Shown: positions 3,569 through 59,196 of the stretch, piece by piece
How the letters are laid out: each line of letters begins with the position of its first letter
How positions within the stretch are numbered: the first letter of the stretch is position 1
DNA from: Lutibacter agarilyticus
GTDB taxonomy: Bacteria > Bacteroidota > Bacteroidia > Flavobacteriales > Flavobacteriaceae
Length of the DNA stretch: 64,000 nucleotides
Assembly: GCF_900188235.1 (NCBI RefSeq)
Contig: NZ_FZNT01000008.1
Coordinates: 62,001-126,000 of the forward strand
Direction of reading: 5' to 3'
Translations under genes and position numbers: made by a program
The notes under the pieces: generated by a model
What the model was told of the DNA's origin: nothing
Databases searched by the model: none
What the model saw: only the letters and a program-made list of their open reading frames with translations

Positions 3569-3678
3569 CTACCATTTCATATCAAATAGCATCAAATTCT
3601 ATGTATTCCTAAAAACTTAAAAAACCTATATAAACATAGGATTTACAAGGATTTGGGCTTTTTTGATTGTTACTTTAG

Positions 3679-3752
3679 TGACCCCGGCAGGATTCAAACC
3701 TGCAACCGCTGGAGCCGAAATCCAGTGCGCTATTCAGTTGCGCCACGAGGCC
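3679..3752 (-). tRNA. tRNA-Arg (anticodon UCG)
   Basis: The complement folds as a complete 74-nt cloverleaf: acceptor GGCCTCG / CGGGGTC with two G-U pairs, D stem GCGC/GCGC, anticodon stem CTGGA/TCCAG with loop TTTCGGC (anticodon TCG at positions 34-36), T stem GCAGG/CCTGC with loop TTTGAAT, and discriminator A. CCA is not encoded. It starts only 10 bp after the yqeY stop codon on the same strand, so it may be processed from the yqeY transcript. Its 3' end faces the integrase and is the likely attachment site of the element. Confidence 0.95.
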
Positions 3753-22499: not shown

Positions 22500-22677
22500 A
22501 AAAGCTGTCTAAAAAAGTTAAATATTCGTCAATCTATGCTTCGTCTCCGCTCAGCAACCAGTTATTGAGCGGAGTCGAAATATAGGTTCTTTGAAAGTTA
22601 AGTTACCAGTATGGTGAGTTTTGAAACAAGTTCAGAATAACGAGACCTTCAATACTTTTTTAGCAAGCTTCTTTTTT
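22500..22677. repeat. Composite palindromic repeat, likely bidirectional terminator
   Basis: The gap between the convergent DUF3570 remnant and argH is one nested inverted repeat. The outer arms are AAAAAAGCTGTCTAAAAAAG near 22500 and a complementary GCTTGCTAAAAAAG-like arm near 22650-22675, each with a T-rich tract outward. Inside are a hairpin CTCCGCTCA / TGAGCGGAG (22545-22575) and a GTTTTGAAACAAGTTCAGAATAACG unit related to the copy at 25902. The build matches the element at 60471-60610. Confidence 0.7.
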
Positions 22678-23953
22678 AAGCTCTATTTTTTTTGGCTACA
22701 ATTTCATCTAAACATAAATTACCTACACTTCCTTTGTGTGTGTGATTTACGGCTTTATCAGGATTGAAGTTTCCTTCATTAATATCTTTACCAACTATTT
22801 TATAAGCATCTCTAAATGGCACTCCATTTTGAACCAATTTATTTACTTCTTCAACACTAAATAAATACAAGTATTTTTCATCTTCAACAATATCAGTTTT
22901 CACTTGAATGTTTTTTAACGAATAGGTTAACATTTCCAAACAAGCTTTCAACGTTGAGAACGACGGAATTAAACCTTCTTTCAACAATTGTAAGTCTCTA
23001 TGATACCCACTTGTTAAGTTGTTAGAAATTAATGTAAATTCCATTGGCAATGCTTGTAACTTATTACATTTCCCACGAATCAATTCAAAAACATCTGGAT
23101 TTTTTTTATGAGGCATAATACTTGAACCTGTTGTTAATTCATCTGGAAAAGAGATAAAATTAAAATTCTGACTCATGTACAAACAAATATCCATACTCAT
23201 TTTAGATAAGGTTGCTGCCACTGAGCTCAACCCAAAAGAAACCGATTTCTCTAATTTTCCACGCCCCATTTGTGCCGCAACTGAATTAAATTTCAACGTA
23301 TCAAAACCTAACAATTCAGTCGTTTCATCTCTATCAATAGGAAATGAACTTCCATAACCTGCCGCTGAACCTAACGGATTTTGATCGGCAACTTTATACG
23401 CTGCTTTTAAAAAGTAAATATCGTCAATTAAAGTTTCAGCATAAGCCGAAAACCACATACCAAAAGAAGATGGCATTGCAACTTGTAAATGCGTATAACC
23501 TGGCAATAACACGTTTTTGTACTTTTCAGCTAATTGAATTAGTAAATCAAATAACTCATCAACACCTTCGTTTATTTCAACTAAAGCATCTTTTAAATAC
23601 AAATGCACATCTACTAAAACTTGATCGTTTCTTGAACGCGCTGTATGAATTTTTTTACCTGTATCTCCTAACTTTTCAGTTAACAAATATTCTACTTTTG
23701 AATGTACATCTTCAAACGAGTCTTCAATAGTAAATTCTCCCGCTTCAATTGTTTTTAAAATGGCGTTTAATTCTACTTCTAAAGCTGAAATTTCTTCAGA
23801 AGAAAGCAAACCAATTTTATGCAACATTTTAGCGTGTGCTAAATTTCCTATTACATCGTATTTTGCTAAAATTAAATCTAACTCTCTATCGTTTCCAACT
23901 GTGAAAATATCTATTTTTTTATCGGTTGAAAATCCTTTATCCCAAAGTTTCAT
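22676..23953 (-). CDS. argH: Argininosuccinate lyase
   Basis: Splits argininosuccinate to arginine and fumarate, the last step of arginine synthesis. The 425 residues contain the superfamily signature GSSIMPHKKNPDVFE (about 273-287), TARSRNDQV, PGYTHLQVAMPSSFG and NPLGSAAGYG. It is somewhat shorter than E. coli ArgH (457). It is the last gene of the minus-strand operon. It is separated from argE by a 90-bp gap containing a stable hairpin repeat, which may affect its expression relative to upstream genes. Confidence 0.96.
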   Translation of the reverse strand: MKLWDKGFSTDKKIDIFTVGNDRELDLILAKYDVIGNLAHAKMLHKIGLLSSEEISALEVELNAILKTIEAGEFTIEDSFEDVHSKVEYLLTEKLGDTGKKIHTARSRNDQVLVDVHLYLKDALVEINEGVDELFDLLIQLAEKYKNVLLPGYTHLQVAMPSSFGMWFSAYAETLIDDIYFLKAAYKVADQNPLGSAAGYGSSFPIDRDETTELLGFDTLKFNSVAAQMGRGKLEKSVSFGLSSVAATLSKMSMDICLYMSQNFNFISFPDELTTGSSIMPHKKNPDVFELIRGKCNKLQALPMEFTLISNNLTSGYHRDLQLLKEGLIPSFSTLKACLEMLTYSLKNIQVKTDIVEDEKYLYLFSVEEVNKLVQNGVPFRDAYKIVGKDINEGNFNPDKAVNHTHKGSVGNLCLDEIVAKKNRA

Positions 23954-23982
23954 AATATTGTTATTTTATTTAGTTTGATGAT

Positions 23983-24036
23983 TGAGCGGAGTGGAAATCA
24001 CGTAACATTTTACTGCTGTCACTTCTACTCCGCTCA
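23983..24036. repeat. Intergenic hairpin repeat between argE and argH
   Basis: TGAGCGGAGTGGAA (23983-23996) pairs with TTCTACTCCGCTCA (24023-24036) with one mismatch. It shares the TGAGCGGAGT core with the hairpin at 22545-22575. It lies inside the arginine operon and has no T-tract typical of a terminator, so mRNA processing or stability is a more likely effect than termination. Confidence 0.75.
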
Positions 24037-24043
24037 GTCACCA

Positions 24044-25102
24044 TTATACTATTTGTTCTAATATTTTAATATATAAATCTATTCCTTCTTCAATTTCACG
24101 AATATAAATAAACTCATCTGCCGTATGTGACCTTAAGCTTTCACCCGGACCTAATTTTAAGGACGGACAGGTTAATATTGCCTGATCTGAAATTGTTGGT
24201 GACCCATACGTTTCGCGTCCTAATTTAATTCCCGCCTGTACAACTTCGTGATCTTTTGGTATTGAAGATGAGTTTAAGCGTTGTGATCTTGGACAAACTT
24301 CTGATTTTACATGTGCTGCTACAATATCAAACACCTCTTGATTTGTATATGCATCTGTCACCCGAACATCAACCACAAATTTACAACTTGAAGGAATTAC
24401 ATTGTGTTGGCTTCCTGCTCCAATTTGAGTCACCGTCATTCGTACTTTCCCTAAAGTTTCTGATTCCTTCGGAAATTCATAGGTTTTAAACCAGTTGATA
24501 TCTTCAATCGCATTGTAAATTGCATTGTCAGCATTTCCGTGTGCAGCGTGCCCCGAAGTTCCTTTTGCTTCACAATTTAACACCATTAACCCTTTTTCTG
24601 AAATGGCTAAATTCATTAAGGTTGGCTCACCAACTATGGCGAAATCTATTTGAGGAAGAATTGGTACAATACTTACCAAACTATTTGGACCTGTATTTTC
24701 TTCTTCGGCAGAAGCCACCATTACAAAGTTATATTTTAAGTCTTCTCTTTCATATAAATACGTAAATGTTGCCAATAATGAAACCAAACAACCACCTGCA
24801 TCATTACTACCTAAACCATACAATTTACCATCTATTATCTCAGGAAGTAAAGGATCACGTGTATAACCTTTATTTGGCTTTACAGTATCATGATGAGAGT
24901 TTAATAAAATGGTTTTTTTTGAAGGATCAAAGTGTTTGTTTTTTGCCCAAACATTATGAACTTTACTTTCAAATTTTATGTTGTGATCTGAAAACCATTG
25001 CATAATTAATAAAGCCGTTTCGTTTTCTTCTCCAGAAAAAGATTGCTTTGAAATTAATTTTTGAAGCAACTCAATTGCTTCTTTTGTCAACTGTTCTATC
25101 AT
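24044..25102 (-). CDS. argE: M20 family N-acyl-ornithine/citrulline deacylase (ArgE-type)
   Basis: A zinc-dependent M20 peptidase-fold deacylase of 352 residues. Metal-ligand segments are visible: SHHDTVKP (His and Asp), LGSNDAGG, SAEEENTG with the catalytic Glu pair and VGEPT. In the operon it follows argB and precedes argH. Because the carbamoyltransferase here is the N-acyl-ornithine type, the likely substrate is N-acylated citrulline (acetyl or succinyl) rather than N-acetylornithine. That assignment is inference from context. Confidence 0.85.
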   Translation of the reverse strand: MIEQLTKEAIELLQKLISKQSFSGEENETALLIMQWFSDHNIKFESKVHNVWAKNKHFDPSKKTILLNSHHDTVKPNKGYTRDPLLPEIIDGKLYGLGSNDAGGCLVSLLATFTYLYEREDLKYNFVMVASAEEENTGPNSLVSIVPILPQIDFAIVGEPTLMNLAISEKGLMVLNCEAKGTSGHAAHGNADNAIYNAIEDINWFKTYEFPKESETLGKVRMTVTQIGAGSQHNVIPSSCKFVVDVRVTDAYTNQEVFDIVAAHVKSEVCPRSQRLNSSSIPKDHEVVQAGIKLGRETYGSPTISDQAILTCPSLKLGPGESLRSHTADEFIYIREIEEGIDLYIKILEQIV

Positions 25103-25107
25103 TTTTT

Positions 25108-25890
25108 TTACAAACTTAATGTTGTGTATAATTTTGTTGAATTTTTCACTAAAGAAGCGTCTCCAATTTTCACTTTACTTACTCCTTTTTGAAGCGCATT
25201 AAAACAATTGTGCATTTTAGGAAGCATTCCGTCAGCAATTATTCCTGCTGCAACTAATTGCTCATATTTTTCTGAATTGATTGCTGTAATTACTGAATCT
25301 TTATCATCAATACTTTCTAAAACACCTTTCAATTCAAATACAAAATTTAATTCTGTAGTGTACAATTTACTCATTCCTATAGCAACTTCCGAAGCAATAG
25401 TATCAGCATTTGTATTTAATAACTGTCCGTTTTTATCATGTGTAATGGCACAAAAAACAGGTGTAACTTTATTTTGAAGTAACACATCAATAATTTCTGA
25501 ATTAATAGCATCAACATCACCTGCAAAACCGTAATCAATATCTTTTACAATACGTTTATGCGCTAAAATACAATTGGCATCAGCACCCGACAATCCCATT
25601 GCGTTACAGCCAAAACTTTGCAGTTTAGCTGTTATTTTTTTATTTAACAAACCGGCATACACCATTGTTACCACCTCAACAGTAGCTTCATCGGTTACAC
25701 GACGACCATTGATCATTTTTGGCTCTAAACCCATTGCTGAAGACACTTCAGTTGCTTTTCTACCGCCTCCGTGTACTAAAATTTTTGGTTCTGAAATTTC
25801 TGAAAAATCTTTTAAAAACGAATTTAAAGCTTCTTCATTATTAATTACATTTCCTCCAATTTTAACTATTTGTACTATTTGTTTGCTCAT
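25108..25890 (-). CDS. argB: N-acyl-L-glutamate 5-kinase
   Basis: An amino-acid kinase family enzyme phosphorylating N-acylglutamate, the second step of arginine synthesis. The 260 residues contain KIGGNVI, LVHGGGRKATEVSSAMG, INGRRVTDEATVEVV, GLSGADANCI, NTNADTIASEVA and ADGMLPKMHNCFNAL. It lacks the N-terminal extension linked to arginine feedback in hexameric kinases, so it is probably the arginine-insensitive dimeric form. The acyl group (acetyl or succinyl) is not settled by sequence alone. Confidence 0.93.
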   Translation of the reverse strand: MSKQIVQIVKIGGNVINNEEALNSFLKDFSEISEPKILVHGGGRKATEVSSAMGLEPKMINGRRVTDEATVEVVTMVYAGLLNKKITAKLQSFGCNAMGLSGADANCILAHKRIVKDIDYGFAGDVDAINSEIIDVLLQNKVTPVFCAITHDKNGQLLNTNADTIASEVAIGMSKLYTTELNFVFELKGVLESIDDKDSVITAINSEKYEQLVAAGIIADGMLPKMHNCFNALQKGVSKVKIGDASLVKNSTKLYTTLSL

Positions 25891-25901
25891 TTACTCTTTA
25901 T

Positions 25902-25933
25902 GATGAGATTCTGAATCAAGTTCAGAATGACGT
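25902..25933. repeat. Dispersed palindromic repeat between argF' and argB
   Basis: GATGAGATTCTGAA-tcaag-TTCAGAATGACG forms a perfect 8-bp stem ATTCTGAA / TTCAGAAT (25908-25915 and 25921-25928). The same unit occurs at 574-605 (degenerate), near 22615-22640 and twice in inverted orientation at 60500-60582. Confidence 0.8.
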
Positions 25934-25941
25934 TTCTTATT

Positions 25942-26889
25942 TTAATTATTCTCCAATATTTTTTTCAACACAATCTGTGCTGAATACGTTCTGTTATTTG
26001 CTTGCTGAATTACGATTGAATTTTCAGAATCTATTACCTCATCAGCAACCACAACATTTCTACGAACAGGCAAACAATGCATAAATTTACCATTATTTGT
26101 AACGTTCATTTTTTCTTCATTAATCATCCAATTTTCATCGGTACAAACCACTTTCCCGTAGTCTTTAAAAGAACTCCAGTTTTTTACATACACAAAATCT
26201 GCATTTTCAAAAGCCTTTTTTTGATTGTATTCAATTTTTGCATTTTTTGTAATTTCTGTATCTAACTCGTAACCTTCAGGGTGCGTAATTACAAAATCAG
26301 CATCTTGTAATTGCATCATTTCAACAAACGAATTAGCAACCGCATGCGGTAAAGCTCTTGGATGCGGCGCCCAACTTAAAACCACTTTTGGCTTGTGAGC
26401 AACCTTGTATTCTTCTATAGTAATAGCATCAGCTAACGCTTGTAAAGGATGCCCTGTGGCACTTTCCATATTAATTACTGGGATTCCGGCATACTTTTTA
26501 AAATTATTTAAAACAATCTCGGCTTTGTCTTTTTCTTTATCTGTTAACGAAGCAAACGCTCTAATAGCAACAAAATCGCAATACTGTGCAATTACTTCTG
26601 CCGCCTCTTTTACATGTTCTGCTTTGTCTTGATTCATTACAACTCCATCTTCATACTCTAACTGCCAACCTTCGCTTCCAAAGTTCATTACAATTACATT
26701 TAAACCTAAATTTTGAGCTGCTTTTTGGGTGCTTAAGCGGGTACGTAAACTATTGTTAAAAAATAACAAACAAATTGTTTTTCCTTTTCCTAAGTGTTCA
26801 AATTGCAATTCGTTTTTTTTAAGCGTTATTGCTTCTTGAACGGTGTTTTGCAAATTATCTAAGTTGTTAATGTTCAAGTAATGTTTCAT
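25942..26889 (-). CDS. argF': N-acyl-L-ornithine carbamoyltransferase (ArgF')
   Basis: A transcarbamylase of 315 residues from the N-acetyl/N-succinyl-ornithine branch rather than ordinary ornithine carbamoyltransferase. The carbamoyl-phosphate motif FFNNSLRTRLS (about 43-53), the 80s loop WQLEYEDGVVMNQDKAEHV and the motif HCLPVRRNVV are present. From memory of the family, the residue that sets the acyl preference is Glu in the Xanthomonas acetyl enzyme and Pro90 in the Bacteroides succinyl enzyme. Here residue 90 is Ala (DKAEH), so the acyl group is open, with succinyl more likely. It lies between proB and argB. Confidence 0.88.
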   Translation of the reverse strand: MKHYLNINNLDNLQNTVQEAITLKKNELQFEHLGKGKTICLLFFNNSLRTRLSTQKAAQNLGLNVIVMNFGSEGWQLEYEDGVVMNQDKAEHVKEAAEVIAQYCDFVAIRAFASLTDKEKDKAEIVLNNFKKYAGIPVINMESATGHPLQALADAITIEEYKVAHKPKVVLSWAPHPRALPHAVANSFVEMMQLQDADFVITHPEGYELDTEITKNAKIEYNQKKAFENADFVYVKNWSSFKDYGKVVCTDENWMINEEKMNVTNNGKFMHCLPVRRNVVVADEVIDSENSIVIQQANNRTYSAQIVLKKILENN

Positions 26890-26894
26890 GTTTT

Positions 26895-27680
26895 TTATTT
26901 TGTAATTATTTTTGTAAACTCTGTAGTATTATTAATGGCGTCAATTATAAAATTTTCTTTTAAGCCGTTTACAATCCAAGTTTCAATTTTAGCCTCTTGC
27001 GCTATTTCAGCAGCAGCAATTTTTGTTGCCATACCTCCAGTTCCATGCAATGAAACAGAGGCTTGTTGAATTTGCTCTTTTAAAGATGCTATATCTGCTG
27101 TTTGCTTGATGGTTTCTTTGTGATCACCATCCATAGATTTTTTGGTGTAAATCCCATCAGTATTGGTTGCAATTATTAACAAATCAACATTTAACAATGC
27201 TGCTGCTAATGCCGATAATTTATCATTATCGCCAAATTTAATTTCATCAGTTGCAACCGTGTCATTTTCATTGATAATAGGAATGTAATTATTCTCTACC
27301 AACACATTAATGGTATTTTTTATATTGGTTCTAGATTTCTCTTTTTTAAAGTCGGAATACGATAACAAACATTGAGATGTAAACAAACCTAATTCCCAAA
27401 AATTTTCATGGAAAATACGCATTAAGTGCGGTTGACCAATAGAAGCTAGTGCCTGTTTTACATTTATAAGCTTGCCGTTACTTTCTAGTTCAACAAACTG
27501 TTTTGCTACAGCAATGGCGCCTGAACTTACAATTATAAACTCATACACCTCTTTTAACGATGCTATTTGACGCGCAATATCCTCTAATTTCCCTCTAGAA
27601 ATTTGGTTGGTTTCTTTTGTTAAAACATTAGAACCAATTTTTAATAAGATTCTTTTTTTATCTGATTTGCCCATCTCCAA
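26895..27680 (-). CDS. proB: Glutamate 5-kinase (short form)
   Basis: First enzyme of proline synthesis, phosphorylating glutamate. The 261 residues cover the amino-acid kinase domain only: LLKIGSNVLTKE, IVSSGAIAVAKQFV, NENDTVATDEIKFGDNDKLSA and GTGGMATKIAAAEIAQ. The C-terminal PUA domain of the E. coli enzyme is absent, which may alter feedback or oligomer state. It overlaps proA by 23 bp, so the two products, whose intermediate is unstable, are likely translationally coupled. Confidence 0.94.
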   Translation of the reverse strand: MEMGKSDKKRILLKIGSNVLTKETNQISRGKLEDIARQIASLKEVYEFIIVSSGAIAVAKQFVELESNGKLINVKQALASIGQPHLMRIFHENFWELGLFTSQCLLSYSDFKKEKSRTNIKNTINVLVENNYIPIINENDTVATDEIKFGDNDKLSALAAALLNVDLLIIATNTDGIYTKKSMDGDHKETIKQTADIASLKEQIQQASVSLHGTGGMATKIAAAEIAQEAKIETWIVNGLKENFIIDAINNTTEFTKIITK

Positions 27681-28854
27681 AAACGTACCATTTATTAGTT
27701 ACCAAATGGTGTAATCCCATTGGTCCTCTATGATGTAATTTATCTGTACTAATTGCCAACTCACCACCCAAACCAAACTGTCCACCATCTGTAAAACGAG
27801 TAGATGCATTTTGATACACCGCCGCCGAATCTACCGACTCCATAAATTGCTGCGCAGTAGCGTTATTTTTTGTGATGATTACTGCTGAATGTCCACCTCC
27901 ATAAGTATTTATTTTGGTTATTGCTTCTTGTATCGTAGCAACACTTCCTAACACAATTTTGTAATCTAAGAACTCTTCAAACCAAATAGCATCATCTTCA
28001 AAAGCTGCAACATTCTCAAATTTCGACAATTCATCATCACCTAAAATTTCAACTTTAAATTCTTTTAATTGTTGAATTAAATTTTGAATAAATGCTTCTT
28101 TATTTGGAAGATCTTCCGCAATTAACACTTTATCAACCGCATTACATGCCGAAATTTTAGCTGTTTTACCGTTCATAATTAGTTTTAAAGCTACATCGGT
28201 ATCTGCCTCACTTTCAACATATATAAAATTATTACCTCTACCACTTACAATTACCGGGCATTTGGCATGTTGTTTTGTAAAAGCGATTAGTTTTTCACCT
28301 CCACGTGGCACAATTAAATCTAACTTTTGAGTAGGATTTTCTAAAAATTCTTGTGTTTCTGTTCGGTTGTAATTTAAATATGCTACCCAATCTGTTGTTA
28401 TGTTATGACTTGCAAGTGCTTTATGCCATAATTCCACAATTTTCAGGTTTGAATTTAACGACTCTTTCCCCCCTTTTAGTAAAATTTTATTTCCAGATTT
28501 AAATGCAATTCCTGCAGCTTCAACAGTTACATCAGGGCGAGATTCATAAATAATTAAAACGGTGCCAAAAGGTGCCGTTTTATTTATAATTTTCATGCCG
28601 TTTTCGTGCGTAAAGTTGTACAATTCTTTCCCTAAAGGGTCTGAATCTTCAATTAGTTGTTGTAATGATAAAATCATTCCGTCAACTTTACTATCATCAA
28701 CTTTTAGTCGGTCGTACATGGCGATATCTTCACCGCTATAATTTTCAACATCGATTTTATTAATGGCTAAAATACTAGCCCTTTCTTGAGCAATTAAAGT
28801 TGCCATTGTATTTAAAACAGCATTTCGTTGTTGGTGTGTTAACATGGTATTCAT
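27658..28854 (-). CDS. proA: Gamma-glutamyl phosphate reductase
   Basis: An NADPH-dependent aldehyde dehydrogenase-fold reductase giving glutamate semialdehyde. The 398 residues contain APFGTVLIIYESRPDVTVEAA, LKGGKES, LIVPRGGEKLI and the active-site Cys region KISACNAVDKVLI. Family length is normal. It overlaps the start of proB by 23 bp and directly follows argD (1-bp overlap), embedding proline genes within the arginine operon. Confidence 0.96.
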   Translation of the reverse strand: MNTMLTHQQRNAVLNTMATLIAQERASILAINKIDVENYSGEDIAMYDRLKVDDSKVDGMILSLQQLIEDSDPLGKELYNFTHENGMKIINKTAPFGTVLIIYESRPDVTVEAAGIAFKSGNKILLKGGKESLNSNLKIVELWHKALASHNITTDWVAYLNYNRTETQEFLENPTQKLDLIVPRGGEKLIAFTKQHAKCPVIVSGRGNNFIYVESEADTDVALKLIMNGKTAKISACNAVDKVLIAEDLPNKEAFIQNLIQQLKEFKVEILGDDELSKFENVAAFEDDAIWFEEFLDYKIVLGSVATIQEAITKINTYGGGHSAVIITKNNATAQQFMESVDSAAVYQNASTRFTDGGQFGLGGELAISTDKLHHRGPMGLHHLVTNKWYVFGDGQIR

Positions 28855-29981
28855 TAGGCTAAAACTTCTTTAAGTGCAGTTATAAAACTAGCTATTTGTT
28901 CTTTTGAAATTGATAATGGAGGTAATATTCTCAATAAATTTTTATTGTTTGATCCACCCGTAAAAATTTGTTTGTCGAAAATTAATTTCTTTCTTAGTTC
29001 ACCCACTTCAAAATCAAATTCAACGCCCAGCATTAAACCTTTTCCTTTTACTTTTTTAATTTCTGGAATTGTTGCTATTTCTTCTAAAAAGTAAGCATAA
29101 ACACTATTTACATTTGCCAACAACTGCTCTTCTTCAATAATATCTAAAACTGAAATTGCCGCTGCACACGCTAAATGATTTCCGCCAAAAGTAGTACCTA
29201 ACATACCGTATTTGGCTTCGTGTTTATTTAAAATTAAAACGCCTCCAATAGGAAAACCGTTTGCCATTCCTTTGGCAGTTGTAATAATATCTGGTTGAAT
29301 ATTGTGGTGTTGAAATGCAAAAAACTGTCCGCTTCTTCCGTAACCACTTTGAATTTCATCTAAAATAAGAAATACGTTATGCTTATTACATATTTTTTCT
29401 ACTTCTTGAAAAAATGCTGTAGTTCCTTCATCTAAACCACCAACACCTTGAATTCCTTCAATAATAATCGCTGCAACATCACCTTTTCCTATTTCGTGAA
29501 TCACTAATTCAATATCGTTTAAAGGTAGAAAAACAACCTCTTGCTGTAGGTTTATTGGCGCATTTATATTTTTATTATCTGTAGCTGCTACTGCTGCTGA
29601 AGTTCGCCCGTGAAAAGCATTACTAAAAGCAATAACTCTACTTTTACCAGTTTTAAAAGATGCTAATTTTAAAGCGTTCTCATTTGCTTCGGCACCAGAA
29701 TTACATAAAAACAAATTGTAGTTTTCACAACCTGAAATTCGACCTAATTTCTCCGCTAATTCTTTTTGTAATGGATTTTGAATTGAATTGGAATAAAACC
29801 CAATTTTATTTAATTGATTGGAAATTGATTTTACATATTTAGGATGTGTATGCCCCACAGAAATTACGCCATGACCTCCATACAAATCTAAATATTTTGT
29901 ACCTTTTTCATCCCAAACATAAGCGCCTTCTGCTTTTACTGGCGTTACATTGTACAACGGATATACATCAAATAATTCCAT
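28854..29981 (-). CDS. argD: N-acylornithine aminotransferase
   Basis: A class III PLP aminotransferase converting N-acylglutamate semialdehyde to N-acylornithine. Start chosen at 29981 (375 residues) because MELFDVYPLYNVTPVKAEGA matches the family start; a longer frame from 30014 would overlap the end of proC. Visible are FLCNSGAEANENALKLA, FHGRTSAAVA, LDEIQSGYGRSGQFFAFQ and the PLP lysine K237 in TTAKGMANGFPIGG. It may also act on ornithine for proline or arginine interconversion, as the cluster mixes both pathways. Confidence 0.93.
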   Translation of the reverse strand: MELFDVYPLYNVTPVKAEGAYVWDEKGTKYLDLYGGHGVISVGHTHPKYVKSISNQLNKIGFYSNSIQNPLQKELAEKLGRISGCENYNLFLCNSGAEANENALKLASFKTGKSRVIAFSNAFHGRTSAAVAATDNKNINAPINLQQEVVFLPLNDIELVIHEIGKGDVAAIIIEGIQGVGGLDEGTTAFFQEVEKICNKHNVFLILDEIQSGYGRSGQFFAFQHHNIQPDIITTAKGMANGFPIGGVLILNKHEAKYGMLGTTFGGNHLACAAAISVLDIIEEEQLLANVNSVYAYFLEEIATIPEIKKVKGKGLMLGVEFDFEVGELRKKLIFDKQIFTGGSNNKNLLRILPPLSISKEQIASFITALKEVLA

Positions 29982-29991
29982 AGTTATTTTT

Positions 29992-30786
29992 TTAAATCTG
30001 ATTAATTTTTTCAAATGAAGTTACCAAACCTCTAATTAAGGATGAGCTTAAACCTTGGTGCTCCATTTCATTCAACCCTTCAATAGTACAACCACTTGGC
30101 GTTGTAACTTTATCAATTTCCTGCTCTGGATGACTTCCAGATTTAATTAATAAACTTGCAGCTCCTAAAGCTGTTTGCATAGATAACTCTTGTGCTTCTT
30201 CAGCATCAAAACCTAATTGAACAGCTCCTTGTGTAGTTGCACGTATTAAACGCATCCAAAAAGCAATTCCACTAGCACAAATTACAGTTGCAGCTTGCAT
30301 TAATTTTTCATCAATACACATAGTTTGCCCAACAGAATTAAAAATAGATTTTGCAGTTTCTACATTTTCCATTCCTTTTTCATTTCCACTTAAACATGTC
30401 ATAGATTGTCCAACCGAAGCAGCTGTATTTGGCATACTTCTAACAATTGAGATACCATGACCTACAATGCTTTCAATTTCTTCTATCTTTCTACCAGTAA
30501 CTACAGAAATTATAGTATGCCTTTTTGCATTTAACTGAGGCTTTATTTCCTCTAGAACACTTTGTAATTGTTTTGGTTGAACCGCAATAATTATTACATC
30601 AGAAAAACGTACTGCCTTTTTATTATCTGTTGAGATTTTAATATTTGGCAGCTTATCCCATTTTTTTAAAGAATCAATATTACGTTTGGTCAAGTATAAA
30701 TTTTTAACCTTAAAATCGTCTTGGGTTAATATCCCCATTGCTATTGAATACCCTAAATTTCCTGTTCCTAAAATTGCTATTTTCAT
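29992..30786 (-). CDS. proC: Pyrroline-5-carboxylate reductase
   Basis: An NAD(P)H-dependent reductase giving proline. The 264 residues contain the Rossmann start MKIAILGTGNLGYSIAMGIL, the VIIIAVQPKQLQSVLEEI strand-helix, VRSMPNTAASVGQSMTCL and the C-terminal signature region VTTPSGCTIEGLNEME. Length is normal. It lies between argC and argD, with 10 bp to argD. Confidence 0.95.
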   Translation of the reverse strand: MKIAILGTGNLGYSIAMGILTQDDFKVKNLYLTKRNIDSLKKWDKLPNIKISTDNKKAVRFSDVIIIAVQPKQLQSVLEEIKPQLNAKRHTIISVVTGRKIEEIESIVGHGISIVRSMPNTAASVGQSMTCLSGNEKGMENVETAKSIFNSVGQTMCIDEKLMQAATVICASGIAFWMRLIRATTQGAVQLGFDAEEAQELSMQTALGAASLLIKSGSHPEQEIDKVTTPSGCTIEGLNEMEHQGLSSSLIRGLVTSFEKINQI

Positions 30787-30818: not shown

Positions 30819-31796
30819 TTAAAACGATGTTGCTTTTAATTTTAAACCTTCCATTTGATCCAAACCAAACATTAAGTTCATATTTTCTATGGCTTGACCA
30901 GATGCTCCTTTTAATAAATTATCTATTTCCGAAGTAATTAACAACATTTCTTCGTGCTTTTGTAAGTGTAAAAAACAATTATTTGTATTTACAACTTGTT
31001 TTAAATTTATAGGTGATTTTGATACGTGTGTAAACAAGGCATCTTTGTAATAATCTTCAAATAATTCATAAGCTTTTTCTATGCTTTCATCAAATTTTAA
31101 ATAGATGGAAACAAATATTCCTCTACTAAAATTACCTCTGTTTGGTATAAAAAATAATTCTTGATTAAAATTATTTTGAAGCGCCACTAGACTTTCACCT
31201 ATTTCACCTAAATGTTGATGTGTAAAAGCCTTATAAACAGAAAAGTTATTATCTCTCCATGCAAAATGAGTTGTTGCTCCTGGTGAAACACCTGCTCCTG
31301 TAGCTCCTGTAGTAGCATTTATATGAATAGAACTATTTAATAAGCCTGCGTTTGCCAATGGCAATAATGCCAATTGAATTGCGGTTGCAAAACAACCTGG
31401 GTTTGCAATGTGTTTGGCTTGTTTAATTTCTTCTTTTTTAGCTTCGGTTAATCCGTACACAAATTCTTTACCTTGAAAAACCATATCGGCATTCAATCTA
31501 AAATCGTTACTTAAATCAATAATTTTTGTATTTTCTGAAAACGAATTATTTTCTAAAAACGCGGTAGAATTTCCGTGTCCCAAACATAAAAATAACACAT
31601 CAACTTCTGGATTAATTTCACTCGTAAATTTTAAATCTAAGGCTCCTAATAAATCTTGGTGTACTTGATAAATATAGTTTCCTGCATTTGATGTACTGTA
31701 TACAAAATCTAATGCTGCGCTTGGGTGATTAACTAACAATCTAATTAGTTCACCTGCTGTATAACCTGCTCCTCCAACTATTCCTACTTTAATCAT
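30819..31796 (-). CDS. argC: N-acyl-gamma-glutamyl-phosphate reductase
   Basis: An NADPH-dependent reductase of the aspartate-semialdehyde dehydrogenase fold. The 325 residues show VGIVGGAGYTAGELIRLL, LFLCLGHGNS, the catalytic Cys in IANPGCFATAIQLALLPL, TGATGAGVSP and HQHLGEIG. Length is that of the short ArgC group. It lies 2 bp after argG and 32 bp before proC. Confidence 0.95.
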   Translation of the reverse strand: MIKVGIVGGAGYTAGELIRLLVNHPSAALDFVYSTSNAGNYIYQVHQDLLGALDLKFTSEINPEVDVLFLCLGHGNSTAFLENNSFSENTKIIDLSNDFRLNADMVFQGKEFVYGLTEAKKEEIKQAKHIANPGCFATAIQLALLPLANAGLLNSSIHINATTGATGAGVSPGATTHFAWRDNNFSVYKAFTHQHLGEIGESLVALQNNFNQELFFIPNRGNFSRGIFVSIYLKFDESIEKAYELFEDYYKDALFTHVSKSPINLKQVVNTNNCFLHLQKHEEMLLITSEIDNLLKGASGQAIENMNLMFGLDQMEGLKLKATSF

Positions 31797-31798
31797 AC

Positions 31799-32980
31799 TT
31801 ATGAGTTTACGCTGTGATAAATTTTATTTGCTGTTCCTAAAATTTTAATAAATCCTTTAGCATCTTCAGATGTCCAAGCTTTATTAGTTTCTCCATATTC
31901 TCCAAATTTAGATTTCATTAAATCGTGTTTAGATTCAATTCCATTTAAACTAAAGTGATACGGTTTTAAAGTTACATAAACTTCTCCGGTTACCGTTTTT
32001 TGAGAATTGGTTAAGAAGGCTTCAATATCGCGCATTGCAGGCTCAAAGTACTGCCCGTCGTGTAGTAACATTCCGTAGGTACTTCCTAAACCTTCTTTTA
32101 AATTTTGTTGCCATTTAGAAAGCACATGCTTTTCTAATAAATGATGCGCTTTAATAATTACGGTTGCAGCTGCGGCTTCAAAACCAACTCTACCTTTAAT
32201 TCCTACAATAGTATCTCCAACGTGAATATCTCTACCAATAGCGTACTTAGAAGCAATTTCTTCTAACTTTAAAATGGTGTTTACTGGTGTATCAAACTCT
32301 CCGTTTAGACCAACTATTTGCCCTTTTTCAAAATGCAATTTAATATTGGTTGGCTCGGTTCTTTTTAATTGACTTGGGTAGGCTTCTTCTGGCAATGCTT
32401 GGTGCGAAGTTAAGGTTTCAACACCTCCAACACTTGTTCCCCAAATTCCTTTATTGATGGAATATTTAGCTTTTGACCAAGGATAATCTACCCCGTGTTT
32501 TTTTAAATATTCTATTTCTTCTTGTCTAGATAATTTTAAATCTCTAATTGGAGTAATAATTTCAATCTCAGGAGCCAATGTTTGAAAAATCATATCAAAA
32601 CGCACTTGATCATTTCCTGCACCAGTACTTCCGTGAGCTATATATTTTGCATTTATTTTTTTAGCATATTCAACAACTTCAATAGCTTGAAAAACACGTT
32701 CAGCACTAACTGACAAAGGGTATGTGTTGTTTTTTAACACATTACCATACACCATAAATTTAATGGCTTTTTCGTAATAAATATCTAAAATATTCTGGTT
32801 TGTATGCGATTTTACTCCCATATCATAAGCTTTCGCTTCAACCACTTTTAATTCTTCGGCTGAAAACCCACCAGTATTTACCAATACACTGTGAACTTCT
32901 AAATTTAATTCGTTTTGCAAGTACTTTACACAATATGATGTGTCTAAACCTCCGCTATATGCTACAACAACTTTTTCCAT
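31799..32980 (-). CDS. argG: Argininosuccinate synthase
   Basis: An ATP-dependent ligase joining citrulline and aspartate. The 393 residues carry the PP-loop AYSGGLDTSYCVKYL at the N-terminus, AHGSTGAGNDQVRFD, YSINKGIWGTSVGG and a C-terminal KPYHFSLNGIESKHDLM. It sits 4 bp after the GNAT gene. The final steps (argG, argH) thus lie at opposite ends of the operon. Confidence 0.96.
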   Translation of the reverse strand: MEKVVVAYSGGLDTSYCVKYLQNELNLEVHSVLVNTGGFSAEELKVVEAKAYDMGVKSHTNQNILDIYYEKAIKFMVYGNVLKNNTYPLSVSAERVFQAIEVVEYAKKINAKYIAHGSTGAGNDQVRFDMIFQTLAPEIEIITPIRDLKLSRQEEIEYLKKHGVDYPWSKAKYSINKGIWGTSVGGVETLTSHQALPEEAYPSQLKRTEPTNIKLHFEKGQIVGLNGEFDTPVNTILKLEEIASKYAIGRDIHVGDTIVGIKGRVGFEAAAATVIIKAHHLLEKHVLSKWQQNLKEGLGSTYGMLLHDGQYFEPAMRDIEAFLTNSQKTVTGEVYVTLKPYHFSLNGIESKHDLMKSKFGEYGETNKAWTSEDAKGFIKILGTANKIYHSVNS

Positions 32981-32984
32981 GATA

Positions 32985-33599
32985 TTATTTTTTCTTCTTT
33001 AGAAATAATGCTTGTTTTATTCTTTTTAATCTGCTTAATGTTTTTGAATTGTATTTATGTTCCTTTGCATTTTTTTTCTGCTTAGGATCGAATAACATTC
33101 CTGTACATAAACACATTTTTTTATCGGTTCTCATTAAAACATCGTAATTTTTACAAGTTCTACACCCATTCCAAAAAGCTTCATCTGTAGTTAATTCTGA
33201 AAAAGTTACTGGTTGGTATCCTAATTCATAATTAATTTTTAATACCGCCAACCCAGTAGTTATTCCGAATATTTTAGCTTCAGGATATTTTTCCTGAGAA
33301 TAGTCTAAAATTTTCTTTTTAATTTTTTTTGCTAAACCCTGATTTCTAAAATCGGGATGTACTATCAACCCTGAATTTACCACAAAAGATTTATTATCCC
33401 AAGTTTCTATATAACAAAACCCAGCAAATTTTCCGTTTTCAACAGCAATTACAGCATCACCTGTACTAATTTTTTTTGTGATGTATTCTGGTGTTCTTTC
33501 GGCAATACCAGTACCTCTAACTTTGGCAGACTCTTTAATAGTCTCACAAATTAATTCAGCATATTTAATATGCGATATATTAGCAATAACAACTTTCAT
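32985..33599 (-). CDS. GNAT acyltransferase, candidate N-acylglutamate synthase
   Basis: A 204-residue GNAT-fold protein with strand-helix features IKYAELICETIKESAKV, AVIAVENGKFAGFCYIETWD, the acyl-CoA loop region VHPDFRNQGLAKKIKKKIL and a Cys-bearing segment FWNGCRTCKNYDVL, ending in a Lys/Arg-rich tail of about 45 residues. It is the first gene of the arginine operon, and no argA or argJ is present in the window. The natural inference is that it makes the N-acylated glutamate that starts the pathway. It is not closely like E. coli ArgA, which has a kinase-like domain. Confidence 0.8.
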   Translation of the reverse strand: MKVVIANISHIKYAELICETIKESAKVRGTGIAERTPEYITKKISTGDAVIAVENGKFAGFCYIETWDNKSFVVNSGLIVHPDFRNQGLAKKIKKKILDYSQEKYPEAKIFGITTGLAVLKINYELGYQPVTFSELTTDEAFWNGCRTCKNYDVLMRTDKKMCLCTGMLFDPKQKKNAKEHKYNSKTLSRLKRIKQALFLKKKK

Positions 33600-33648
33600 T
33601 GATTACTTTTTGTTTTAAATTGATTTATTGATGTTTTTTTTGAGAAAC

Positions 33649-33696
33649 GAAAACGGACTCACCGTTTTCAATAGAAAATTACGCCCGTAAGGGGCG
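33649..33696 (-). promoter_or_regulatory. Candidate attenuator of the arginine operon
   Basis: Reading the minus strand after the Arg-rich leader frame there are three overlapping hairpins: CGCCC / GGGCG (33696-33692 with 33686-33682) within its last codons; TTTTC / GAAAA (33678-33674 with 33669-33665) just after its stop; and GAAAACGG / CCGTTTTC (33669-33662 with 33656-33649), followed by a broken T-rich stretch. The second and third exclude each other. This matches the logic of ribosome-mediated attenuation, although the T-tract is weaker than in the ilv attenuators. Confidence 0.6.
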
Positions 33697-33744
33697 GCGT
33701 GCGAAGCGGCGTACAATTGTAGTATTTAAATTGTAATTTTTCAT
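33679..33744 (-). CDS. Arg-rich leader peptide of the arginine operon
   Basis: A 21-codon frame (ATG at 33744, TAA at 33679-33681) lies 79 bp upstream of the GNAT gene. It begins MKNYNLN and ends with the segment IVRRFARRPLRA. Five of the last ten codons are arginine (CGC CGC, CGC CGC, CGG), codons that stand out as GC-rich in an AT-rich genome. Overlapping hairpins follow at the stop codon. By analogy with his, trp and ilv leaders, arginine starvation would stall ribosomes at these codons and relieve termination. The frame, composition and position are seen; regulation is inferred. Confidence 0.7.
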   Translation of the reverse strand: MKNYNLNTTIVRRFARRPLRA

Positions 33745-33749
33745 TACCA

Positions 33750-33757
33750 CAATATTA
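33750..33757 (-). promoter_or_regulatory. Possible -7 element of the arginine operon
   Basis: TAATATTG on the minus strand matches TAnnTTTG at all but one defined position, with TTG 16 bp upstream. The predicted transcript would start within a few bases of the leader-peptide ATG. Confidence 0.35.
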
Positions 33758-33860
33758 CGCTAAATATTCTATACAACCACTCATTTGTTTATTATTTAAC
33801 AACATTTCATATTAAACAGTCCTTTATTAACAATATGCATCAATTTTTATTATAAATCAC

Positions 33861-59059: not shown

Positions 59060-59071
59060 CAGTCTAAAATT

Positions 59072-59124
59072 TAGGAGGAAGAATTTGACTGATTGCAACC
59101 TCATTAAAAAATGCTAAAGCAGTA
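59072..59124 (+). promoter_or_regulatory. SAM-II-type riboswitch upstream of metK
   Basis: The stretch has the SAM-II plan: P1 GAGG (59075-59078) pairs with CCTC (59099-59102); the loop holds ATTTGACTGATTGCAA with the conserved ATTGCA; after an A-rich ATTAAAAAAT comes GCTAAAG. The pseudoknot is supported by ACTG (59088-59091) pairing with CAGT (59120-59123). It starts just after a good promoter and lies 72 bp before the metK ATG. A following AGCG / CGCT hairpin may be part of the switch. SAM repression of metK is the expected logic. Confidence 0.82.
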
Positions 59125-59196
59125 TTCATTACTTCTTTTAGCGACCGCTGTAATCAACTTTTCTTTCAATTATTTATAATTAAAATATAAAAAGAT

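Follow-up and report, generated by a model that had tools for sequence, protein, structure and literature searches.

How a bacterium in which no ArgR is found controls the synthesis of arginine is the question raised by an operon of Lutibacter agarilyticus (Flavobacteriaceae), which was analyzed within a window of 64,000 nucleotides (contig NZ_FZNT01000008.1, positions 62,001 to 126,000; all coordinates below are window positions). The ArgR domain PF01316 was found by profile search in none of 60 relatives, the genome of L. agarilyticus included, and the same search was positive in 9 of 14 control genomes, a Bacteroides among them. The norm of ArgR control invoked in a preliminary description of this DNA therefore does not fit the clade. 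We consider it likely that the GNAT-argG-argC operon is controlled, in place of ArgR, by ribosome-mediated arginine attenuation at a hairpin, designated T, that lies between a short Arg-rich leader frame and the first gene.

The arginine operon and its leader

The genes behind the leader are the following.

32985..33599, minus strand: GNAT acetyltransferase, 204 aa, first gene of the operon (Pfam PF00583)
31799..32980, minus strand: argG, argininosuccinate synthase (Pfam PF00764 and PF20979)
30819..31796, minus strand: argC-like semialdehyde dehydrogenase (Pfam PF22698 and PF01118; the name argC is from context)
29992..30786, minus strand: proC-like pyrroline-5-carboxylate reductase (Pfam PF14748)
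28854..30014, minus strand: argD-like class III aminotransferase (Pfam PF00202)
22676..28854, minus strand: proA, proB, an argF-like transcarbamylase gene, argB, an argE-like gene and argH (named by eye from ORF translations)

The Pfam matches, together with the position of the leader element next to GNAT and its co-occurrence with argG, identify the operon as one that makes arginine. The leader itself is a single frame.

33679..33744, minus strand: leader ORF MKNYNLNTTIVRRFARRPLRA*, ATG to TAA, 21 codons plus stop, with related leaders at 30 same-genus loci

The frame of 21 codons with five Arg in its last ten, from which the preliminary description started, is confirmed at 33744-33679 on the minus strand; four of the Arg codons are CGC and one is CGG, and all five fall within the final ten. 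The window contains 3,040 frames of 8-60 codons that run from a start to a stop; just two of them have at least five Arg in the last ten codons, and both are this leader, counted with two possible starts. The GC-rich island in AT-rich DNA that had been noticed there also holds, with 73% GC at 33679-33711 and 32% in the window. CGC and CGG make up 5 of 5 Arg codons in the leader versus 6 of 79 in the operon behind it, where AGA is dominant (44/79). The 201-nt leader region folds with z = -2.57, a stability equaled in 3 of 200 shuffles.

Upstream of the leader lies an ilvA-like gene (Pfam PALP and Thr_dehydrat_C), which reads by eye as the end of an apparent ilv operon. We also noticed that the ilvD-like gene is preceded by two Ile/Val-rich leader peptides in series (41061-40796, minus strand), the first being MKKLIINIISIYVSVIISQEA at 41061-40996 and the second MKAKFIYIIILIQVIIVSSKD at 40922-40857, both on the minus strand and both followed by a hairpin with a U-tract of 6-7 bases. 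The window that holds the Arg-codon leader further contains a tRNA-Arg with anticodon TCG (3678-3752, minus strand) and a SAM-II riboswitch (Rfam RF01726, 71 bits, 59069-59127, plus strand).

Promoter and transcript start

Two promoter-like elements were located ahead of the leader.

33774..33776, minus strand: candidate -33 element TTG, 16 nt ahead of the -7 box
33750..33757, minus strand: -7 promoter box TAATATTG, one mismatch to the consensus TAnnTTTG

A box of the form TAnn[AT]T[TC]G stands 3-7 nt ahead of the first leader start at all 30 same-genus loci, a count made without a shuffled control, and at 19 of the 30 a TTG is found with 14-24 nt spacing to the box. As these boxes resemble the flavobacterial -7 element, for which PMC9723704 gives the consensus TAnnTTTG, transcripts of the same-genus loci probably start within one or two bases of the AUG. 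In the window the box is so spaced that the transcript likely begins some one base ahead of the ATG of the leader, so that its ORF would probably be nearly leaderless.

Hairpins at the leader locus

The structured elements at the end of the leader frame and beyond it are listed in transcript order.

33682..33696, minus strand: hairpin P1, CGCCC (33696-33692, Arg and Pro codons) paired with GGGCG (33686-33682)
33680..33686, minus strand: GGGCGTA, region 2 of the antiterminator proposed here, with complementarity to the loop of T
33649..33669, minus strand: hairpin T, GAAAACGG-TGAGT-CCGTTTTC, with covariation in 53 plus 97 sequences
33655..33661, minus strand: T loop plus CC, TGAGTCC (conserved as UGNGUCC), partner of region 2, recognized by motif conservation
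33641..33648, minus strand: tail after T, GTTTCTCA, without a U-tract

The hairpins had been said to begin at the stop codon of the leader; the CGCCC/GGGCG stem instead ends one base before it. Since P1 and T share no bases, a further element is needed to connect the two. A weak UUUUC/GAAAA pairing, previously proposed as antiterminator, sits between them. In Rfam 15 no family matches the region at the gathering threshold, nor at E up to 1 in 33590-33860. A search of the genome of L. agarilyticus with the sequence of T returned the arg site as an exact match and otherwise two sites with three mismatches, and the reversed control was commoner (3 vs 5).

Conservation in the Flavobacteriaceae

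The GNAT gene is present in 42 of the 60 genomes searched, that of L. agarilyticus included. The genus comparison comprised 30 GNAT upstream regions (the window's among them), to which 80 further loci were added to give 110 upstreams, 96 of them distinct and 93 tested for Arg-rich frames. At least four Arg in the last 12 codons were found in 60 of the 93 upstreams where dinucleotide shuffles gave an expectation of 0.8, and at least five in 29 of the 93 where 0.25 were expected from such shuffles. In a model-free search the motif G[GA]TGNGT[CT]C was present in the last hairpin in 59 of the 96 distinct upstreams; 53 of these 59 form alignment A1, which is hence selected for the motif.

A model of P1 plus T, designated R1, has one match in the genome of L. 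agarilyticus, at the leader site (70 bits). R1, which would be a new RNA family, matches 125 of 199 genomes of the window's family (198 genera sampled) and is found in 124 of the 198 genera. Nearly all matches (121/127) lie 33-239 nt (median 44) upstream of GNAT on the same strand, and the element is present in 121 of 130 GNAT genomes and absent from nine. It co-occurs with argG, which was above the cut-off in 138 of the 199 genomes, 123 with the element and 15 without; the 61 genomes without argG above the cut-off gave two weak R1 matches, of 28 and 22 bits. In one genome (G399) the element stands ahead of another ORF, GNAT-like by eye, which is followed by argG.

A second set was taken from 110 of the 127 R1 matches, leaving out six seen before and the 11 weakest; 99 of its rows are outside the training set, 98 have P1, and 97 are in alignment A3. 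These rows are independent, of the same family as the first set and possibly of the same species. The loop motif recurs in 106 of the 110 matches, R1 itself having been built from motif-bearing sequences. In the 98 sequences the frame that enters the P1 arm has a mean of 4.04 Arg in its last 12 codons, one of which is built in by construction wherever P1 is CGCCC, and the other two frames have 0.91 and 1.27. The Arg codons used are CGC (209), CGT (159), AGG (12), AGA (8), CGA (7), and CGG (1), and the first in-frame starts are ATG (67), TTG (21), GTG (9), and none (1). The leader of L. agarilyticus is real and widely conserved, and it probably functions in sensing arginine. In nine genomes of a single genus of this family (g21) the leader before GNAT is Arg-poor or absent. 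At seven loci of this genus (L118-L121 and L124-L126) a conserved Arg-poor leader of the type MNKISLHITSLSRTNSPGTSPEVRML.. replaces the Arg-rich one before GNAT and may represent a remodelled or lost attenuator.

Tandem leaders

Among the 30 same-genus loci, 11 have a single leader of about 21 codons with RR..RRPLRA or a near variant at its C-terminus; tandem leaders are present at 19. The first of the tandem leaders has 24 codons (e.g., MKSYNLNTTVKIPTRFFEVRRCVR*), and the second frame has a TTG start, usually ends at the same place as the single leader, and contains at least three Arg in 15 of the 19 loci. An extra upstream short frame with at least three Arg in its last ten codons was also found in 44 of the 98 further family sequences (2.95 expected), often of the type MKNLKNKIRCTTPGLPVRNRRRF*; with at least four Arg the count is 33 of 98 (0.15 expected).

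The coding start of the upstream leader pairs with a U-rich segment past its own stop, with a mean z of -2.41 (34 of 41 below -1) in the further family sequences and of -2.58 (18 of 19 below -1) at the same-genus tandem loci. A ribosome stalled on the Arg codons of the upstream leader would be expected to hold this helix open. Given a second Arg-rich leader with a pairing helix of its own, arginine control in the relatives with tandem leaders may have two stages. The tandem arg leaders, together with the tandem ilv leaders of the window, suggest that two-stage attenuation may be common in Flavobacteriaceae.

The same data bear on whether the Arg codons could have arisen as a side effect of a GC-rich hairpin, with a frame that is untranslated or irrelevant. 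Such a bias is partly built in, since the last Arg and Pro codons form the 5' arm of P1, but the roughly four Arg per tail are more than the P1 arm alone gives, the second Arg-rich frame occurs upstream and away from P1 far above expectation, and all 30 first leaders of the genus start just after a promoter-like box; we find this explanation scarcely credible.

Covariation of P1 and T

In alignment A1, seven of the eight pairs of T are changed on both sides, a number reached by 21 of 500 shuffles, with 58 both-side cells versus 23.2 in shuffles (reached by 0/500). In the 97 further sequences, 84% of the cells of T are paired in a register with one bulged base; 63 both-side cells were counted versus 22.7 in shuffles (0/500), and seven pairs show double changes, a number reached by 4 of 500. 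The subgroup with a bulged A in T behaves alike, its number of both-side pairs being reached by 2 of 500 shuffles, and for P1 plus T this number was reached by none of 500. The covariation score was likewise reached by 0 of 500 shuffles for T in A1, in the bulged-A subgroup, and in A3, as well as for P1 plus T. Counted by pair types, the alignments do not exceed the shuffles (reached by 115-428 of 500). When the partners are slid by one column, 72-77% of the cells still pair, because T has two registers, and the score falls below that of the actual structure.

A best-stem search recovered, in every one of the 53 sequences of A1, a P1-like stem with 4-5 pairs, and in two of them (L048 and L057) the arms of P1 are changed and yet paired. 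In the fixed alignment of the 53 sequences 86.8% of the P1 cells pair, the outermost pair failing in 25 sequences. The preliminary description had proposed to look in relatives for Arg-rich short frames with covarying hairpins, and the outcome is largely positive: the frames recur at the 30 loci of the genus and in the 98 family sequences, and the last hairpin covaries. For the first hairpin, with double changes in only two cells, the alignment shows conservation but little covariation.

Antiterminator pairing and predicted switching

The UUUUC/GAAAA pairing did not hold up as antiterminator, its mean energy in 58 of the 59 motif-bearing sequences being no better than that of shuffled spacers (-0.66 vs -0.76 kcal/mol). 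A different link is offered by the 3' arm of P1 and the two bases that follow it, GGGYNYR, which are complementary to the loop of T plus its shoulder, UGNGUCC. In this 2:3 helix the share of paired positions is 83% over 52 sequences and 79% over the 98 further ones, versus 19-60% at other offsets. Positions 6-7 of GGGYNYR are pyrimidine-purine in 57 of 90 sequences, versus a fraction of 0.187 elsewhere in the spacer, and because they lie outside P1 their pairing cannot be explained by P1. The helix is weak: its centre, position 5, is mostly unpaired (it pairs in 17/52 and 19/98), and in energy it surpasses shuffles only slightly (mean z -0.39, with 36 of 57 sequences below zero). The spacing between P1 and T is tight, with 23-27 nt from GGG to the loop in 90 sequences. 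We regard GGGYNYR/UGNGUCC as the best candidate antiterminator, unproven but better than UUUUC/GAAAA, and this pairing is also the best candidate explanation for the otherwise odd conservation of the T loop. Two further partners of the loop, 16S rRNA in an SD-like pairing and the sequence on the 3' side of T, were considered by eye and rejected, both pairings being broken by loop variants.

In the attenuation model that we favor, transcription would begin some one base ahead of the leader AUG and a ribosome would load at once. When charged tRNA-Arg is scarce, the ribosome would stall on the CGN codons at the leader end and cover the 5' arm of P1, leaving GGGCGUA free for the loop of T and its 3' shoulder (UGAGUCC); with these two paired, T could not form and transcription would continue. 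When arginine is plentiful, the ribosome would reach the stop codon next to GGGCG and cover that strand, so that T would form and transcription would stop before the GNAT gene. Without translation, P1 would form, nothing would keep T from forming, and the operon should remain off. Of this model, the leader frame with its Arg codons, P1, T, their placement and their association with argG come from sequence comparison, and the transcript start, the 2:3 pairing, stalling, termination at T and the response to arginine are inferred.

These states were approximated by masking, and the predicted probability of T was averaged over 57 sequences. With the mask extending through the 5' arm of P1 the mean is 0.71 (0.69 in the window); with the mask extending past the 3' arm, or placed only further upstream, it is 0.86 in either case (1.00 in the window); and in unmasked sequence it is 0.62, the lowest of all (1.00 in the window), owing to upstream pairing of T or of its arms. 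Masking of the Arg codons hardly lowers the formation of T in many sequences of the same genus. As predicted values, 0.71 and 0.86 fit a trp-like scheme of 1:2, 2:3, and 3:4 helices, and the unmasked 0.62 does not fit well with a full shut-off without translation.

The conservation of the loop (59/96 upstreams and 106/110 R1 matches), unusual for a plain terminator, and the bulged A two pairs below it in many relatives, which is the geometry of some protein-bound hairpins, would suit a T whose UGNGU loop is the binding site of a protein or small molecule, the Arg-rich frame being secondary. We think this very unlikely, as the loop has an internal partner in GGGYNYR, an Arg frame runs into the element in the 98 further sequences on average, and Arg leaders precede GNAT also in genomes without an R1 match.

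The tail of T and termination

The weak T-tract, which the preliminary description held to be its main doubt, is confirmed by the eight bases after the last stem, GTTTCTCA. A U-tract after T was not found in the 57 sequences tested either, where a mean of 3.3 U in 8 nt compares with a background of 2.8, and GCAAA follows T in 6 of 97 relatives. Of the leader hairpins, a terminator scan listed only P1 and not T. The arg leader of L. agarilyticus would work like a leader-peptide attenuator, and since the U-tract looked for after T was not found it is not a standard intrinsic-terminator attenuator.

This raises the possibility that the leader senses arginine through its Arg codons with an output other than termination at T, which would then be a stability or pausing element, with shut-off brought about by Rho-dependent termination, by decay of the mRNA, or at the level of GNAT translation. 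We hold this to be unlikely, though by no means negligible: the two ilv leaders of the same window have U-tracts of 6-7 bases whereas T has none, and in speF orf34 two Arg codons act together with Rho and RNase G (PMC6386406), but T is set back from the GNAT start by tens of bases (median 44 nt from the end of the model to the GNAT match) and does not cover it, and the tight spacing of P1 and T (23-27 nt) suits an RNA-RNA switch. Termination at T, as required by the attenuation model, stays our preferred reading of the output.

ArgR and Arg-rich leaders in the phylum

In 198 genomes sampled across the phylum, GNAT (E up to 1e-15) is present in 83 and ArgR in 73, and the two overlap in only two genomes, G088 and G111. 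The ArgR matches of these two are five of 33 bits in 127-aa frames (G088) and one of 27 bits in a 312-aa frame (G111), unlike all other ArgR matches, which score at least 58 bits. Because ArgR and GNAT are split by lineage, the pattern is an association rather than a count of many independent events, and the E cut-off could miss a more distant GNAT in ArgR genomes.

At least four Arg in the last 12 codons were found in 43 of 82 other GNAT upstreams of the phylum (3.4 expected). In f36, a family outside the window's class, an Arg-rich leader precedes GNAT in 20 of 20 GNAT genomes, 15 of them ending PRRR*.

L130, L132-L142, L145, L147, L150, L151, L153, L158, L166, L167: leaders of family f36, mostly of 20-23 codons

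R1 has 12 matches in the 198 phylum genomes, ten in the window's own family and two weak, and none in the 20 genomes of f36; as the model does not reach these leaders, the RNA structures differ in f36. Families f37 and f42 are mixed for Arg-rich leaders, and f5, f23, f24, f35, f38, f40, f50, and genus g21 show at most 2 Arg in the scan. Upstream of argR itself, in 20 ArgR-bearing genomes, frames with at least four Arg are near chance (4 vs 2.8) and those with at least five are above it (2 vs 0.3). At Chitinophagales- and Sphingobacteriaceae-like loci (L087-L109, e.g., L103, L107, L097, and L105) an Arg-containing leader seems, by eye, to be followed by other structured segments, such as a long hairpin starting at the leader stop codon. 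Given Arg-rich leaders ahead of GNAT in further families of the phylum, the system extends more widely than had first been thought.

Whether most arginine-making Flavobacteriaceae and other ArgR-less lineages of the phylum share a separate attenuator design that replaces ArgR, with one or two Arg-rich leaders, a loop that serves as antiterminator strand, and an off-switch free of a U-tract, is in our judgment an evenly balanced question. If true, this would explain the control of arginine synthesis in a large group of bacteria where no ArgR was found, and arginine biosynthesis would join the short list of pathways controlled by leader peptides. The conserved loop and the missing U-tract raise the question by what means such leaders would halt RNA polymerase.

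Comparison with known systems

A search of the full-text literature, outside which most subscription papers and supplements lie, found no description of an arginine-synthesis attenuator in bacteria, in agreement with the earlier remark that an Arg attenuator was not well described; for sensing by Arg codons there is one close experimental precedent, the Salmonella speF leader orf34. By its name, the Bacteroid-trp motif RF01692 is a trp leader. It is likewise a probable cis-regulatory RNA of Bacteroidetes (PMC2864571), and it differs in that no Rfam family matches the L. agarilyticus leader region. Flavobacterium psychrophilum shows "strong clues" for leader-peptide attenuation ahead of amino-acid operons, with structured 5' elements that have no Rfam matches, and the passages on these name pheA and hisG among others, not arg (PMC9723704). 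The carA motif belongs to beta-proteobacteria (PMC8632094), and a term search of PMC8632094, PMC2965389, PMC2864571, PMC6429828, PMC7366714, and PMC11109978 returned no arginine-synthesis attenuator.

Experimental precedents exist for the sensing of arginine by leader Arg codons. The speF leader orf34 is likewise a short ORF upstream of its gene and has Arg codons in a row, at which ribosomes pause when arginine is low and thereby switch between alternative RNA structures; this gamma-proteobacterial leader differs in controlling ornithine decarboxylase, not arginine synthesis, and in its output by Rho, RNase G, and sequestration of the RBS (PMC6386406). The Arg codons of the Staphylococcus aureus leader peptide rbfL also sense arginine limitation, as established by experiment, but rbfL has 8 codons, overlaps the ribosome binding site of rbf, which is a biofilm regulator, and represses translation at low arginine (PMC13009471).

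The L. agarilyticus arg leader is like the trp, his, and ilv attenuators in that a short ORF rich in codons for the end product stands before the biosynthetic operon and is followed by helices proposed to be exclusive. In the enteric systems a 5' short ORF rich in codons of the end product lies ahead of the operon for that product, and helices 1:2, 2:3, and 3:4 are mutually exclusive. The present system differs from these in having arginine as the end product, often two leaders in series, a probably nearly leaderless start, and a last hairpin that lacks a U-tract and whose conserved loop can supply the 2:3 pairing.
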